Positions 30,442 through 60,585 of a DNA stretch of 64,000 bases are shown here, one piece after another. Positions within the stretch are counted from its first letter, which is position 1, and every line of letters starts with the position of its first letter. This stretch comes from Sphingomonas naphthae (GTDB lineage Bacteria > Pseudomonadota > Alphaproteobacteria > Sphingomonadales > Sphingomonadaceae): NCBI RefSeq assembly GCF_028607085.1, contig NZ_CP117411.1:248001-312000 (forward strand), written 5' to 3'. A program made the translations under genes and the position numbers. The notes beneath the pieces are model-generated. The model ran no database searches, was not told the origin of the DNA, and worked only from the letters and a program-made list of their open reading frames with translations.

Positions 30442-30580
30442 TGGGGGTGGGCTCCTTGGGTTCGGTCGCCGGCTCGGGCGCCTTGGGCTTGATGATCTTG
30501 TTGGCGAGGGCGGTGCCGACGGCCAGGATGAGCTGGGCGAGCGCGGCGGCGAGGGCCTCGCGGGCGAGGCGGCCGATCAT
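30434..30580 (-). CDS. 48-residue protein between endolysin and secreted fibre-like gene
   Basis: An amphipathic alanine/leucine-rich N-terminal half (MIGRLAREALAAALAQLILA) is followed by a Lys/Pro/Glu-rich tail ending TPNA. It overlaps the endolysin stop (ATGA) and the next start by eight bases, and this tight packing is the main support. It may belong to the lysis set, for example as a small membrane-active peptide. Confidence 0.6.
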   Translation of the reverse strand: MIGRLAREALAAALAQLILAVGTALANKIIKPKAPEPATEPKEPTPNA

Positions 30581-31212
30581 GCGGCCTTGCTCCATGCCGC
30601 CCACCAGCGGGTTCCGGGTAAGAAACTGCGGGTCCGGTTGTGCCAGCCGCCCACGAAGGCCTTGTCGGGGTCGTTCGGCCCCTCGTTGCTAGCCAGATAC
30701 TCGTCGAAGGCGATGCGGGCATCGGCCCATCGTGCAGCCGCCTCGGGCTCCCCGTAGCGATCGAGGAAGCCGGAATAGGCCGCCACCGTCTTCGGTCCGA
30801 TGTCGCCGTCCTGCACGACGCCGATCATCTTCTGCATCATCTTGATCGCGCGATCGGGGCCGGAGCCCCAGCCCTTGTCCATGATGGAAGCGGTGACGCG
30901 ATTCCACCGGAGCCGGCCGAAACCGGGATCCGTGTAGTAGAGCTTCACGCCGATGCTGATCGCTTCCTCAATCGTGAGGTCGCGGATCGCGATCCGCATC
31001 GCCGCAGCCTCCAGCACGACGCCGCGAAAGGCGTTGAGCGCATAGGCGGTGACACCGAACTTGGAGCCGACCAGCGAGCCGACGTTGCGCTGCTGCTTCC
31101 AGCCCTTTCGATACGACGCGGGATCGTACCAATTGCCGTTGTCGGCGGGGTGGAGGCTGAGGCCACCCTCGTGCGCGCGGATGTATCCGGCGATGAAGTC
31201 GCGGGCGAGCAT
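30577..31212 (-). CDS. Endolysin: GH108 N-acetylmuramidase with peptidoglycan-binding domain
   Basis: 211 residues. The catalytic glutamate of family GH108 lies in AHEGGLS (Glu15), followed by FGVTAYALNAFRG and IGVKLYYTDPGFGRLRWNRV, as in bacterial and phage GH108 enzymes. The C-terminal part (MMQKMIGVVQDGDIGPKTVA) matches the PG_binding_3 domain. It cuts the glycan backbone at lysis. ATG 31212; an in-frame GTG at 31218 overlaps the holin stop (GTGA) and could also serve. No signal peptide, so a holin is needed. Confidence 0.93.
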   Translation of the reverse strand: MLARDFIAGYIRAHEGGLSLHPADNGNWYDPASYRKGWKQQRNVGSLVGSKFGVTAYALNAFRGVVLEAAAMRIAIRDLTIEEAISIGVKLYYTDPGFGRLRWNRVTASIMDKGWGSGPDRAIKMMQKMIGVVQDGDIGPKTVAAYSGFLDRYGEPEAAARWADARIAFDEYLASNEGPNDPDKAFVGGWHNRTRSFLPGTRWWAAWSKAA

Positions 31213-31214
31213 GG

Positions 31215-31496
31215 TCACTCCCCCTTCACGCGGGCTACGCTGTCGTCAGCAGCGCGGGCGACGGTGACGAGCTGGGCTTTGGCGGAATGGCTGCGCCAGA
31301 GCGCATAGCCCGTCGTGACGATCGCCAGCACCAGGCCGGAGATCAGGGCTTCGTCGGCGTGGCCGATATAGCCCCGGCGGATCAGCCAGCCGGCCAGCAG
31401 GGCGGCGGCGTAGCGGGCTGCGGTCGCCAGCATCGCGGGCACGGGGTCGGGATTGACGACCAGCGGGGTGCTGGTCGCCTCGGGGGCGTCGGTCAT
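31215..31496 (-). CDS. Putative holin (Pam3-gp28-like)
   Basis: 93 residues with two hydrophobic segments (about 22-40, LATAARYAAALLAGWLIRRG, and 50-66, ISGLVLAIVTTGYALW) and a charged C-terminus. Size, topology and its place directly before the endolysin match alphaproteobacterial phage holins of the Pam3-gp28 type. ATG 31496 follows GGGAG. It would open the membrane for the endolysin at a set time. Confidence 0.75.
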   Translation of the reverse strand: MTDAPEATSTPLVVNPDPVPAMLATAARYAAALLAGWLIRRGYIGHADEALISGLVLAIVTTGYALWRSHSAKAQLVTVARAADDSVARVKGE

Positions 31497-54702: not shown

Positions 54703-54879
54703 CGCACACATCGTCCGGTGGGGCAGAAGCGAATCAATCACGAGCAGATGCCAGCGCGGCTGGCGGAGGGCACCCTTGCGAGGATGGACGCGGTCCTTGT
54801 GCCGCCTGAGAAACGCGCCGAGTTCGTCAGGGTAGCAATCGAACGAGAGATAAAGAGGCGTGAAAAGGCGGCGAAATGA
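54682..54879 (+). CDS. Ribbon-helix-helix-like regulator
   Basis: 65 residues from TTG 54682, which has GGAGG five bases upstream; ATG 54694 lacks this. A basic N-terminus (ISRTHRPVGQKRINHEQ) precedes a strand-helix-helix pattern (MPARLAEGTLARMDAVLVPP, EKRAEFVRVAIEREIKRREK) like RHH repressors. The TGATATCA array in front suggests autoregulation. Its stop overlaps the transposase-like gene start (ATGA). Confidence 0.7.
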   Translation: MTEYMISRTHRPVGQKRINHEQMPARLAEGTLARMDAVLVPPEKRAEFVRVAIEREIKRREKAAK

Positions 54880-56249
54880 ACTGGTTGCGACTTGATGGCT
54901 TCGACGTTGGCGATCCTCGCGAGATCCGCGACGAGGACGGCCGGCTGACAGAAATTCAGGTCGATTGCGTCCCGAACACGTTCGACGTCGACCTCTGCTG
55001 CCTGGCCCGCAAGCTGGTGAAGAACGGCACGCGGATCGTGAAGTATCGCGACCTGCGCCTTGATGCCGCGCCGACCTTTCTGCACGTCACGCGCCAGCAG
55101 TATCAGTGCAAGAGCTGCGACAGCACGCTCTACCAGGGCGTCCCGCACGTCGACGGCAAGCACTTCATGACCGAGCGCCTGCGCGACGCGGTCGTGCTGT
55201 CGTCGATCAAGCGGACCTTCGCGGATGTCGAGCACGTCCACGGCGTCGATGAGAAGATGGCCCGGCTGCTGTTTCGCGCCCATGCTGACCGCGAGCTGCT
55301 GAACTACCGATACAAGGCCCCGCGCGTCCTAGGCATCGACGAGAACGCGCTGATGGGCGACCAGCGTGCCGTGATCTGCGACGTCGAGAAGGGCCTGCTG
55401 CTCGACATGCATCCGGGCTGCACCCAGTCGGACGTGCGGCGGGGTCTGGACCGCATGGAGAACTGGGGCAACGTCGAGGTGTGGTGCCAGGACATGGCCG
55501 GCCACTACAAGGGGCTGGCCAAGGATCTGTTCCCGAAGGCCGCGATCGTCGTCGACAAGTTCCACCTGCTGAAGATGGCGAACCATTGGTGAGGCGTCGT
55601 GCGCCGGGCCGAGACGCCCAAGCTGCCGGGCGAGGTGAAGAAGAAGATGCCCGGAATGGTCCGGTTGTTCGACAAGCACTGGGAGACCATGACGGACCGC
55701 CAGCAGGACCGGGTGGCCGAGATACTGGAGATGAGCCCGCGCATGAAGATGGCGTGGACCATCAAGGAATCGTTCTACTACTTCTACGACGCACCCAACC
55801 GCGAGGACGCCGAGAGCGCCTACAAGCAATGGGTCCAGTTCGCGAAGGCCGACCAGCACGAGGTGTGGAAGCCGCTGATGCTGACCGTCGCGCGCTGGCG
55901 GAAGGAGATTTTCAACTACTTCGACCACCCCTACACGAGCGGGATGGTCGAGCGGATGAACCGGTCGATCGGCGACATCAACCGGGCTGGCAATGGCATG
56001 GATTTCCAGACGCTGCGCGCCAAGGCAATCCTGCGCTACAGCCACCTGATCCCGGACTGGCGCTTCCACATGCACTTCGTCGAGATCGGCACCGACTGGC
56101 TGGACGAATACCTCGACGAGGACGCGCACGAGGAGGACGCCCTCTATGACGACCGCTACATGATCGGGTCCGGCTTCGACCCATCAATCTTGGCGGCCGA
56201 TCTGGAGGCAGGCACGTTCGACGTTCCATCAAGCAGATTCGCCGGATAA
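54876..56249 (+). pseudogene. ISL3-type transposase gene interrupted by in-frame UGA
   Basis: Two in-frame parts, 54876-55592 (238 residues) and 55593-56249, together give a 457-codon ISL3-like transposase: a degenerate zinc-binding N-terminus (QYQCKSCDSTLYQ), first Asp in VLGIDENALMGDQRAV, second in WCQDMAGHYKGLAKDLFPKA, Glu in GMVERMNRSIGDINRAGNGM. The UGA at 55590-55592 lies between the second Asp and the Glu, so an active site cannot form without readthrough; GTG 55599 could restart. No terminal inverted repeats or target duplication were seen, and the start is coupled to the RHH gene, so this looks like a resident operon gene, not a recent IS. Confidence 0.8.
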
Positions 56250-56741: not shown

Positions 56742-57512
56742 TCACGCGGCATCTCGGGATGCGGCGATCTCATCGTCACTCCACAGGCGGTAAACCCGAT
56801 CGACGCAGGCCGGCCAGCGGTTGAGGGCCTCAATCAGCAGCCGCCGGGCCCGTCGGTGATGGACGCCATGCCGCTTGGCCGCGACGCTGTAACCGATCGC
56901 ATCGCCGACGATCATGTCCAGCACGAGCTGGCGCGGCATAGGTAGCTGCTCGCGCCATTGGCCATAGGCCATGTGCAGACGGATGCGGCGGATGCTCTCG
57001 CCGACCCTGTTGCGGTTGCCGCCTCCATTATCGACGCGAGCTTCGAGGCTGGCCACGCTCACCGCAACGTCGCTCTCAATCGAACGATGGACATTGGCGA
57101 TCTCGGCCGCCCATTCGAGCTGGTCGGCGTCGATCGTGCCATTGGCTTTCATCTGCACGAGCGCGTCGGAGTGCGTACCCTGAGCCTTCTCCAGCGTCTC
57201 GGGCGTACCGGCGAATCCAGTGAAGCGCGAGCCCTTCATGGCCTCCGACCGCAGGCGAGCCTTTTCCACCTTCCATTCCGCCTTGCTCATACCAGCCGGC
57301 TTGGATCCCAACTTGGGCGGATCGGGTCGGTAGCCCATGACGCGCTCGTCAACGCGCTGGCGCTGGCGGCGCATTGCATCTGCCAGCCGCCCTTGGCGCG
57401 CCTGATAGCGCGCGACTGCGGCCGGGTCCGCCGCGTAGCGAGCGGCCAAGGCGGCGCGGGCCGCCCTGATCCGCTCGGCTCGCTCCTTCGGTGTCTCGCT
57501 TCCCCGCCCCAT
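56742..57512 (-). CDS. HTH protein at the end of the early operon (possible late regulator)
   Basis: 256 basic residues. The N-terminal half is a long charged helix region (SETPKERAERIRAARAALAA). The C-terminal part has MPRQLVLDMIVGDAIGYSVA followed by AAKRHGVHHRRARRLLIEAL, a helix-turn-helix pattern. As the last gene before the terminator it occupies the place of antiterminator or late activator genes in lambda-type phages; that role is inferred. ATG 57512 (GGAG nine bases upstream) is preferred over GTG 57518. Confidence 0.6.
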   Translation of the reverse strand: MGRGSETPKERAERIRAARAALAARYAADPAAVARYQARQGRLADAMRRQRQRVDERVMGYRPDPPKLGSKPAGMSKAEWKVEKARLRSEAMKGSRFTGFAGTPETLEKAQGTHSDALVQMKANGTIDADQLEWAAEIANVHRSIESDVAVSVASLEARVDNGGGNRNRVGESIRRIRLHMAYGQWREQLPMPRQLVLDMIVGDAIGYSVAAKRHGVHHRRARRLLIEALNRWPACVDRVYRLWSDDEIAASRDAA

Positions 57513-57565
57513 ACTCACTTACTCCGATCCCGTTCTCTCTATGTACTGATGATGCAGGTGGTGGG

Positions 57566-58204
57566 CTACGCCGCTTCCCGTGATTGGTCGGGTTCGGCTG
57601 CCGGAAGGCGATAGGTTCCGCCGTCCGGCTTGAACCGGATACGGGAGCCCATGGCCTCCATCTCCGCATTGGCCGCGTCGACGTCGAATGGATCGGCCGC
57701 CTCGGGCTCCGGCGCGGCGCGGAGAATCTGGCGCAGCCGCCAAGCGCGCACCACACGGAGCGGGGCCGGCAGCTTCGCCGCGTGCTCGCGGATCTCGGCG
57801 ATCGTCGGAAAGAACCGGTTCGCATTGATCGCCGCGCTGAAGGCGTCCGCGAGGATGTCGGCGTCGATATCCGCCAACTGGCGCTGATACAGGTCGATAC
57901 GCGCCGCCGCCTCATCGTCACTGACCCGCTGCGCCGGGAAGGCGACGGCGGCCGCACCGACGAGCGCGGCGATCTTCCGTGGTCCGGTGCCTCGCGGCGC
58001 CTGATCGTAGGCCGCCAGAGCGTCGACCGCCGCCGCCCTATCCTCGCCCGTCAACGCCGGCAGCCGGGCGGCGCCATCGGCCCACAGGCCATGGTCATCC
58101 ACCACCGCCGCGAGCGATGGCGGCAGCAGCGGCGCGGACCATCGGGTTGCAAGGCTCGTCGTTCGCTGGTCGGCGAGGGCGGTGCTGGGAGGTCTGTCGG
58201 TCAT
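57566..58204 (-). CDS. Replication protein, probable helicase loader (lambda P-like position)
   Basis: 212 residues. RIDLYQRQLADIDADILADA with NANRFFPTIAEIREHAAKLP is a pattern I know from phage replication proteins that follow an initiator gene and recruit the host helicase. ATG 58204 has GAGGG six bases upstream but gives a 110-base overlap with the initiator; GTG 58105 would cut the overlap to 11. Function is by position and pattern. Confidence 0.65.
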   Translation of the reverse strand: MTDRPPSTALADQRTTSLATRWSAPLLPPSLAAVVDDHGLWADGAARLPALTGEDRAAAVDALAAYDQAPRGTGPRKIAALVGAAAVAFPAQRVSDDEAAARIDLYQRQLADIDADILADAFSAAINANRFFPTIAEIREHAAKLPAPLRVVRAWRLRQILRAAPEPEAADPFDVDAANAEMEAMGSRIRFKPDGGTYRLPAAEPDQSREAA

Positions 58205-58880
58205 AGGAACCCTCGATCAGGCGGGTGAAGCTCTTGGGCTGAAGGAGGAAGTCGAAATCGGCTCGCCACCCTCGGTCGCTGTCGCCACGGCAGAATGGCG
58301 ACCGCTCGATGGCGGCGATGGCCTCGGTGAAGGCGTCGGGGCCGAACTCGGCAAGGCGGGCGCGGAGACGGCCCTTGCGCTCGGCGGTGAGTTTCACGAC
58401 CGCGCTCAGGCCGGTACGCTTCGCCATGTCGTTCCAGGCGGCCACCGCGCCGTCGAGGGCTGCGGCTTCGCGCTGACCCGCCGCCATGGCTGCCAGCGTT
58501 GCCAGTGCCAGGCGATTGGCCATGATCCGGGAGGTGATCGGAACCGAAATCGGATCGGCCTCGCGCTCGTGCGGTACACACACACACGGGGTGGGGGTTA
58601 ATTTTTGGGGGTCTGGGGGGCTTTTATTGGGGGTAGGGGGCGCGGTGACGGATTCCGTCACATCGGCGTCACGGGCGTCACATGTGACGCTCTGTGACGA
58701 CTGGTGACGCTCCCGCCAGCGGCGAGTGCGCAGTGCCCCCTTGCTCGGGAGCGCGGCCGCTTCGATCGCAGATCGCGCCTCCGCCTCTGCACGCGCGAGG
58801 GCTGCCGCCACCTCGCCGACAAGGGCGAGTGGCGTGCCGGCCTCTATGAGGCGCGCGAGCAGGGCGGCGGAGTCGACCAC
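58095..58880 (-). CDS. Replication initiator (lambda O-like)
   Basis: 261 residues. The C-terminal half (WNDMAKRTGLSAVVKLTAER, then RSPFCRGDSDRGWRADFDFL and LLQPKSFTRLIEGSYD) is characteristic of phage O-like initiators. A Pro/Thr/Cys-rich linker (SVTAPPTPNKSPPDPQKLTP) separates it from a helical N-terminus with TRRWRERHQ. The linker DNA carries the presumed origin, as in lambda O. GTG 58880 follows directly on the preceding stop. Confidence 0.82.
   Translation of the reverse strand: MVDSAALLARLIEAGTPLALVGEVAAALARAEAEARSAIEAAALPSKGALRTRRWRERHQSSQSVTCDARDADVTESVTAPPTPNKSPPDPQKLTPTPCVCVPHEREADPISVPITSRIMANRLALATLAAMAAGQREAAALDGAVAAWNDMAKRTGLSAVVKLTAERKGRLRARLAEFGPDAFTEAIAAIERSPFCRGDSDRGWRADFDFLLQPKSFTRLIEGSYDRQTSQHRPRRPANDEPCNPMVRAAAAAIARGGGG
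58588..58709. other. Putative phage replication origin: six G-tracts plus seven phased iterons
   Basis: Seven TGACG/CGTCA copies start at 58646, 58656, 58667, 58676, 58685, 58695 and 58705, spaced 9-11 bases, that is about one helical turn. Directly to the left the plus strand has six tracts of four to six G between 58588 and 58640, broken by AT-rich TTAATTTTT and CTTTTATT. Iterons beside an unwinding element inside the initiator gene is the lambda plan. Confidence 0.75.
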
Positions 58881-59069
58881 CTACCCGCGCACCTCGCGCA
58901 CGAGCGGATCCGCACGATAGGCCTGATGGACCTTCGTGGCGGCGCCGCGACGGGCTGCGTCCTGACGGGCAAGGCGGTCAGCCTTGCGCGCCGCCAGTGC
59001 CGCCAGCGTGTCACGGATGACGCGCTGGCGGGCTGGGGAGCGGCCGAGGGGCTCGAGCGCGCTCGGCAT
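58881..59069 (-). CDS. Small basic protein before the initiator, 62 residues
   Basis: Arg/Ala-rich helix (RVIRDTLAALAARKADRLAR, then QDAARRGAATKVHQ). ATG 59069 overlaps the preceding stop (TGATG) and its own stop abuts the initiator GTG, so it is tightly built into the operon. No family recognised; a nucleic-acid-binding role would fit the charge. Confidence 0.6.
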   Translation of the reverse strand: MPSALEPLGRSPARQRVIRDTLAALAARKADRLARQDAARRGAATKVHQAYRADPLVREVRG

Positions 59070-59506
59070 CACGCGACAACCTTCGCCGACACCTGGGCCA
59101 GCTTAGAGCGGAGCGAGGCAATCTCACTCTGCACGATGGCTTGGTGTTCGCGGGAAAGCTGATCGAGGGCGTTGATGTCGGCGCGCAGGGCGCAGATCGC
59201 TGCCGGCTCCTTGATCTCGCCGAAGCCGGCGAGGCGGAACTCGGCGACGGTGGCCGGGGAAACGCCAGTCTCGTCGGCGATCTTCTTATCCGACCAGCCC
59301 ACCGCGTAGGCGCCGGCATCGGTATCGAAATGCTCGCTCAGCAGGCCGATCATCTGGACCTGCGCCTTCATTGCGGCGGGCGATGGCTTTGACGCCATGG
59401 GCTTCTCCTTGGTGCGCGAGGCGCGGCAATCGGGGCAGACGTGGGGGTCGATCGACCATCCGGCCTGCGTGAACTTCTGGTCGATTTGCTCGGGCGGCAT
59501 CAGCAT
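59069..59506 (-). CDS. Zinc-ribbon plus HTH early protein; true start unresolved
   Basis: From ATG 59506 the protein has 145 residues, with HVCPDCR near residue 24 and an HTH-like part (SDKKIADETGVSPATVAEFR). In-frame codons upstream of 59506 read CSTCAKRGERKLRM, giving the other half of a four-cysteine ribbon, but no usual start codon exists between there and the DUF2303 stop at 59650. Alternatively ATG 59398, with AAGGAG six bases upstream, starts a protein lacking the ribbon. A start-codon change or non-canonical start is possible. Confidence 0.6.
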   Translation of the reverse strand: MLMPPEQIDQKFTQAGWSIDPHVCPDCRASRTKEKPMASKPSPAAMKAQVQMIGLLSEHFDTDAGAYAVGWSDKKIADETGVSPATVAEFRLAGFGEIKEPAAICALRADINALDQLSREHQAIVQSEIASLRSKLAQVSAKVVA

Positions 59507-59649
59507 CCGCAGTTTCCGCTCGCCGCGTTTCGCGCAGGTCGAGCATTGCAGATGCGCGGTGATGGTGGGCGCGCCAATGCCGGGGCGGGTCGTGACCGAC
59601 CTGCCCCGGTTGGCGAGCTTGTAACTATGGCCCTGATGGCCCGTATTCC

Positions 59650-60585
59650 TCAGGCTTCCGGACGACCGAGGAATACGGGCAAATCGGTCTCCGCCCGCAC
59701 CTGATTGATGGCGCCTCTGAAGGCCGCGTCGAAGGTGCGATCGAGCCGGAACAGCTCGTACCAGAACACGATGGCACCGGCGTTGACGCGGTAGCGCAGG
59801 CGGGCGGCGATGCGCCAGAAGAGCCCGTGCCGGAAGATCGGGATCCCGATCATGAACACCTTCGGCACCTTCACCGGCGCGCCGGTGTCATCGGTGTGGG
59901 TCGCGTTCCAGTGGACCTGTCCTTCGCCGCTGGCGAGGTTGACGACCTGCCGGACGGTGCTCTGCTCGTTGACGGAGAGACCCCGCGCCAGTTCCATCAG
60001 CCGCGTAGGGCCGGCGATGATGTCGGGGCCGCCCAGCTCGTTGACGAGGTGCTGGATATCCTCGCTCAGCTCGTCCTCGCCGGGAATGAGCATCATCAGG
60101 TCGGGCAGGCGATCTTCGAGGAACGCCGCGAAGTCGGTCATCGACATCTTCTTACCGTCGGTCGCCAGCCACGCCCTCCATTCGTCCGACATGGGAAAGG
60201 CGAAGGTCGCGCGGTGCTTGCCGAACCTGGGCGCCGTGCCCGGCCCGCCGGTCGGGTGATAGTCCAGCACCGCCGTCATGCTCGGCTTCGTCCGCTCATC
60301 GTCGGCGAAGATGACGCTCTCGGCATCCTTGAAGCGGTTCACGTGCGCCATCAGGCTTTCGAGGGAGAGCATGACGGCCGTGCCGTGGCGGTGCAGCGGC
60401 GCTTCCCGGTAGAGATCGAACAGCAACGGCGACAACGCCCGCACATCGTTGCCTGAGCGGATGACGAGGGCCTCGGCGCCGGTGCCCGGCTCCTTGGCGG
60501 TAAGGATGTCCGCCTTCACATATTCTTCGACGAGGCTGCGGGCCTCGGCGACCACGCCGCCGTGCGGATCGGTGAAATCGACCAT
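59650..60585 (-). CDS. DUF2303 (YfdQ-like) phage protein
   Basis: 311 residues (start MVDFTDPHGGVVAEARSLVE). SLESLMAHVNRFKDAESVIF, TAVLDYHPTGG and RFGKHRATFAFPMSDEWRAW are hallmark segments of DUF2303, a family common in phage early regions and of unknown function. ATG 60585 has AAGGA upstream. It follows a 133-residue early gene. Confidence 0.9.
   Translation of the reverse strand: MVDFTDPHGGVVAEARSLVEEYVKADILTAKEPGTGAEALVIRSGNDVRALSPLLFDLYREAPLHRHGTAVMLSLESLMAHVNRFKDAESVIFADDERTKPSMTAVLDYHPTGGPGTAPRFGKHRATFAFPMSDEWRAWLATDGKKMSMTDFAAFLEDRLPDLMMLIPGEDELSEDIQHLVNELGGPDIIAGPTRLMELARGLSVNEQSTVRQVVNLASGEGQVHWNATHTDDTGAPVKVPKVFMIGIPIFRHGLFWRIAARLRYRVNAGAIVFWYELFRLDRTFDAAFRGAINQVRAETDLPVFLGRPEA

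Follow-up and report, generated by a model that had tools for sequence, protein, structure and literature searches.

The prophage in this region quite probably carries its origin of replication inside its own initiator gene, built as in lambda from initiator sites and an adjacent opening region. The window, by which we mean the whole stretch of 64,000 nucleotides analyzed, holds the initiator gene together with a locus of repeats and G-runs within it, and family matches place both in a prophage: leftward of the initiator gene, we found matches for an endolysin (30577-31218), tail fibre, tape measure, major head and protease, portal, and large terminase. The prophage span in the window (30577-63962) also takes in two methyltransferase genes and the replication region. 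An ISL3-family transposase (54876-56249, plus strand) also falls inside the prophage, with a DNA methyltransferase gene on one side and the replication genes on the other; its sequence is broken into two open frames, 54876-55592 and 55599-56249.

The initiator gene (58095-58880, minus strand) encodes a protein of 261 amino acids that matched phrog_345 (replication initiation, O-like) with an E value of 3.6e-19 over residues 48-232. The match reached profile positions 95-295 of 297 and left residues 1-47 of the initiator outside, and thus the N-terminal domain of the phrog_345 family was not found in the window initiator. Pfam gave no match to the 261-residue protein at E values up to 0.05, a profile search of PDB sequences returned nothing convincing (best E, 0.051), and Foldseek with the structure model found no PDB match at an E value of 0.001 or better (best E, 1.6). 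The protein was matched in 20 of 50,697 annotated phage records, in none of them over 80% of its length. The AlphaFold2 model, whose alignment drew on 67 of 103 sequences (a pool of the window protein, 57 homologues, and 45 N-terminal fragments), had a mean pLDDT of 80.5, and it predicts helices at residues 4-13, 18-43, and 47-62, the last of which is basic by sequence, followed by a low-confidence linker (63-114) and a helical C-domain (115-228). By arithmetic, the repeat array codes for residues 58-79 and the G-tract for residues 81-98. The earlier note had located both in the linker of an O-like gene, in agreement with the phrog_345 match and with the low-confidence stretch between two helical parts. 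An alternating AC run (58576-58587) abuts the G-tract and codes for a CVCV part of the linker.

The array itself (58645-58709) is iteron-like and consists of seven GTGACG/CGTCAC hexamers in mixed orientation, starting at 58645, 58656, 58667, 58676, 58684, 58694, and 58704, with spacings of 11, 11, 9, 8, 10, and 10 bp; on the plus strand, one forward copy is followed by three reverse and three forward copies. The two hexamers nearest the G-tract form a perfect palindrome (58645-58661), and so does the middle pair (58675-58690). Indeed, seven copies in 70 bp make this the densest 6-mer cluster in the window, with five copies in the runner-up, and the description from which we started, seven TGACG/CGTCA elements phased by the helical turn in mixed orientation, was borne out with steps of 8 to 11 bp. 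When the codons of the initiator gene were shuffled synonymously, seven copies of the hexamer were reached in 0 of 5,000 shuffles (mean, 2.07; maximum, 6), and seven copies of the 5-mer TGACG/CGTCA were reached in 56 of 5,000. Computation shows that the number of repeats goes beyond coding constraint. The single strand from 58580 to 58720 folded better than dinucleotide shuffles (z = -4.73), with pairing mostly from the palindromic array.

Next to the array lies the presumed opening region (58588-58640, G-rich on the plus strand, C-rich on the gene strand), in which three pairs of G-runs are split by A/T patches. The six runs have lengths of 4, 5, 5, 6, 5, and 5 bases, just as had been described for six G-tracts of four to six bases alternating with A/T patches. 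Six runs per 60 bp are the maximum of the window, and elsewhere in it up to three occur. The whole initiator gene has seven C-runs of at least four bases, an ordinary number for its codons (shuffle mean, 6.7), and therefore the G-tracts stand out by their clustering and conservation, not by their number. Recurrence in relatives defined a conserved core, CCCCAGACCCC (58608-58618, minus strand), which is read in frame 1 as PPDP, and the consensus of the relatives defined two A/T patches on the same strand, AATAAAAG (58621-58628) before and AAAAATTAA (58598-58606) after the core as the gene is read. A BLAST search with a 201-bp segment gave no match to any plasmid or phage.

Relatives of the initiator were collected by protein search (66 loci in viral contigs and 8 in genomes). 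Removal of L076 to L080, in which a pattern search found no GWRADFDF motif, of the fragments L050 and L063 (<300 bp), and of near-duplicates left 62 distinct motif-bearing genes, each 300 bp or longer, the window included; the counts do not include relatives from plasmids (7 records), phage records (20), or a search of the family (78 of 396 genomes). The 11-mer CCCCAGACCCC occurred on the gene strand in 8 of the 62 genes, whereas 500 rounds of synonymous shuffling gave 0.43 such genes on average and never more than 4, and AGA was the commonest triplet within CCCCNNNCCCC (8 genes; any other triplet, at most 2). Since 54 of the 62 genes have no core, the core is not needed with this C-domain. 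Five coreless O-like genes (L024, L053, L056, L058, and L061) have other simple linkers (TETETE, NNIIYNNN, SQSQSQ, and EQEQEQ), hinting that linkers of low complexity may be general in this gene type. Two Sphingomonas genomes hold relatives at the protein level, both without the core.

We then scanned viral contigs at the DNA level with CCCCAGACCCC followed by ATTAA within 12 bases (69 stretches), with CCCCAGACCCCCCAAC, called the CCAAC pattern (48 stretches), and, as a control, with the ATTAA pattern read backwards (52 stretches). By an N-terminal profile, the ATTAA pattern fell in O-like genes in 32 of 69 cases and the CCAAC pattern in 27 of 48, but the backward control in 0 of 52 (Fisher P = 3.6e-10 for ATTAA against control). 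The first N-terminal profile had been seeded from the scan hits, and therefore it was rebuilt from proteins of the protein search alone; this gave 32, 26, and 0 placements in O-like genes, with 29 in place of 32 when the contigs that supplied seeds were removed. A looser pattern (CCCCAGACCCC, 7 to 24 bases, CCCC) gave mostly chance matches: combined with the C-domain profile, it put the core in an O-like gene at 3 of 150 listed loci (L081 to L230), none of them new: one was the window, and the other two were contigs that the protein search had already given. Others carry other C-termini. In the order to which the window belongs, 30 of 296 genomes hold the loose pattern, and 6 of the 30 loci kept from that scan, the window included, have an O-like N-terminus by the N-terminal profile. 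The ATTAA pattern was found in 3 of 385 genomes of the class, the window's own included; thus, the exact element is rare among the genomes scanned. At four further loci (L238 to L241), the same core lies in proteins with another N-terminus that looks HNH-type by eye.

The scan matches in O-like genes, the window, and three relatives found by protein search add up to 63 places, 52 of which are distinct (differing by more than 12 positions in 150 bp). Among these 52, the core is read in frame 0 at 31 places, in frame 1 at 9, and in frame 2 at 12, giving the peptides PQTP, PPDP (or SPDP or TPDP), and PRP. Frame 0 owes 21 of its 31 places to the CCAAC pattern, which falls in no other frame in O-like genes; taken by itself, the ATTAA pattern gave 10, 5, and 12 places in frames 0, 1, and 2. 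The core was the same in the consensus of each frame, and the A/T patches resembled one another, although both scan sets fix the core and one flank by the pattern, so that part of the conservation at these positions is built in. Ten more proteins with the element were compared with phage protein families. Two had no match, seven of the other eight had a replication initiation family as the best match (phrog_678 four times, phrog_1408 twice, and phrog_270 once), and the eighth had a best family of unknown function with a replication family in second place; Pfam gave no matches for these proteins. Together with phrog_345, four main C-terminal types of initiator are joined to the core. Three reading frames and four C-terminal families point to selection on DNA or RNA and not only on protein: protein constraint cannot keep one core in three frames, but constraint on DNA or RNA can. 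The computations show that the core element goes beyond coding constraint and is common to initiators with different C-termini, and they likewise show modular exchange between initiators.

The opening region was compared in 49 O-like genes with the core and enough sequence. The least stable 40-bp window of the gene overlapped the element in 29 of the 49, with 9.1 expected from position. In the group made up of the ATTAA genes, the window, and the relatives found by protein search, the overlap was seen in 26 of 31 genes, in contrast to 3 of 18 in the CCAAC class. The least stable 40-bp window of our initiator gene also overlaps the element, yet 32 of the 53 bp of the tract are G or C. This base composition and the low count in the CCAAC class weigh against the tract and its counterparts as parts of an origin. 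The conserved feature is a pair of C-runs around AGA with A/T patches as flanks.

The repeats upstream of the core vary from phage to phage (CGTCAC, CGTCAG, CGTGAC, CGTTAC, and others). Distances between copies of the commonest 6-mer, pooled over the 52 distinct relatives, peaked at 10, 20, and 30 bp (54, 34, and 17 pairs), and lesser maxima lay at 6 and 28 bp; these are raw distances without a shuffle control, and the genes are related. A step of 10 bp breaks the reading frame. In 23 of the 52 relatives, the top 6-mer exceeded synonymous shuffles (matched by 3 or fewer of 300), the rest being weaker in this exact-match test. A Mantel test on the 42 of 52 genes that were long enough correlated the repeat spectrum with the peptide that immediately precedes the array (r = 0.37; 0 of 2,000 permutations), some of these peptides possibly overlapping the array by a few residues, and with the C-terminus (r = 0.11; 3 of 2,000 permutations). 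The correlation with the N-terminal peptide was 0.36 as a partial correlation on the C-terminus, which is the sole way in which shared ancestry was handled. Since the repeats track the N-terminal peptide, the helical and basic N-terminal module may be what reads them, as the correlation suggests.

From these features, we infer three steps, namely binding, opening, and recruitment of the helicase. The helical/basic module at the N-terminus of the initiator would bind the seven phased hexamers coded just downstream in the same gene, and the assembled complex would strain the neighboring tract so that the A/T patches around CCCC-AGA-CCCC open. The C-domain would then recruit a loader, perhaps the product of 57566-58204, and the DnaB helicase of the host. 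The gene at 57566-58204 (minus strand) overlaps the end of the initiator gene and is a possible helicase loader gene by weak matches, to Pfam Inhibitor_G39P (E = 0.025, below the family cut-off) and to the helicase loader family phrog_2289 (E = 0.0076); its top family is phrog_9804 (E = 2.2e-10), whose function is unknown. With phmmer (E up to 1e-3), a homologue was seen 3' of the gene in 9 of the 42 other element-bearing genes with 600 bp downstream, or in 10 of 43 with the window. This count replaced one by a regular expression, which had matched the window alone (1 of 43).

How the tract would open, and whether the locus acts as an origin at all, can be read in other ways. The earlier note had proposed quadruplex unwinding, in which the G-rich template strand folds and keeps the duplex open. 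For the window this part stood: its six G-runs, separated by loops of 1, 9, 3, 8, and 2 bases, suffice for a quadruplex (G4Hunter, 2.36). As a general mechanism it did not, because four C-runs were found in 30 of the 49 core-bearing genes, where synonymous shuffles predict 23.9, and the 12 frame-2 genes included no such case; a quadruplex is thus possible in the window but is not a conserved property, and we consider opening driven by it quite unlikely. Slightly better placed, but still unlikely, is an element at the RNA level, with the C-rich, G-poor transcript serving for Rho loading or as another RNA signal in the early operon. The C-rich strand was indeed the coding strand wherever the element fell in an O-like gene, the three scan sets having yielded 223 antisense peptides with no O-like match among them, and independence of frame suits RNA as well as DNA. 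However, the core directly follows a repeat array in two orientations, as suits DNA binding, the region 57500-60000 had no Rfam match up to an E value of 1, and translation would normally shield a Rho-loading site or RNA signal.

An operator in place of an origin, that is, an autoregulatory site of the initiator or a site of another phage regulator, would also account for short palindromic repeats, which suit a repressor too. But the array lies in the middle of the gene and adjoins a less stable region, the arrangement seen in lambda, and the sole promoter-like match in 57500-59500 (58499-58526, plus strand; 0.1 expected) runs against the direction of the gene, so that we regard an operator as very unlikely. 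Most improbable of all is that protein low complexity alone explains the tract, as a proline-rich disordered linker whose GC-rich codons yield C-runs by chance. The C-run count per gene is what the codons would lead one to expect, and the linker has low confidence in the model, but one 11-mer read as three different peptides in three frames, its count in the 62 genes (twice the shuffle maximum), and the empty backward control largely refute an explanation at the protein level.

An origin inside the initiator gene would also permit a wider reading, to which we give less than even chances: that the origin is a portable cassette in which a basic helix, its repeats, and the common CCCC-AGA-CCCC opening element with its A/T flanks move as a unit of about 200 bp of coding DNA between phages, acquire a new set of repeats whenever the basic helix changes, and are joined to unrelated C-termini that recruit the helicase. 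If so, the G/C core would represent a new type of origin element, perhaps one that a host factor binds or a stiff hinge that directs melting to the A/T patches. The locus would place origins in a phage group with few relatives in annotated records, and it would offer a natural experiment on the coevolution of initiator specificity and origin specificity within a single gene. A conserved G/C element that is independent of frame in an opening region raises the question of what a GC-rich motif does where the strands part. Among the matches listed in a literature search, no title or abstract opening dealt with this element in phages, which is not proof of absence, and of 17 papers that contain the 11-mer CCCCAGACCCC, none of the 12 whose titles were listed concerned a phage.

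The closest known counterpart is the lambda origin. The lambda record has four annotated iterons inside gene O, whose half-sites, picked by eye, have mixed orientation and spacings of 8, 11, 12, or 13 bp; of the 41 bp that follow the iterons, 32 are A or T. The likeness to lambda that had been claimed for our locus thus holds in its main lines: repeats lie within the initiator gene as half-sites of mixed orientation (8 to 13 bp in lambda and 8 to 11 bp in the window), a less stable region follows them in the direction of the gene, and the C-terminal part belongs to an O-like family. Unlike lambda, the window has GTGACG hexamers, G/C runs in the opening region, and a 53-bp tract that is far less A/T rich, and residues 1-47 of its initiator, outside phrog_345, are predicted to form helices followed by the basic helix. 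SPP1 oriL, by the description in the extract of PMC6316719, lies within gene 38 and has direct repeats, an unwinding element, and the loader gp39; the putative origin in the window likewise lies in the initiator gene, next to which there is a weakly G39P-like gene. The origins of Stx phages, as described in the extract of PMC7466680, have iterons and a plain A/T-rich tract in the middle of gene O, and in the window, too, iteron-like repeats and tract lie in the middle of the initiator gene. The window locus is built like the origins of lambda, SPP1, and the Stx phages and differs from them in its repeats, its N-terminus, and its C-run core.
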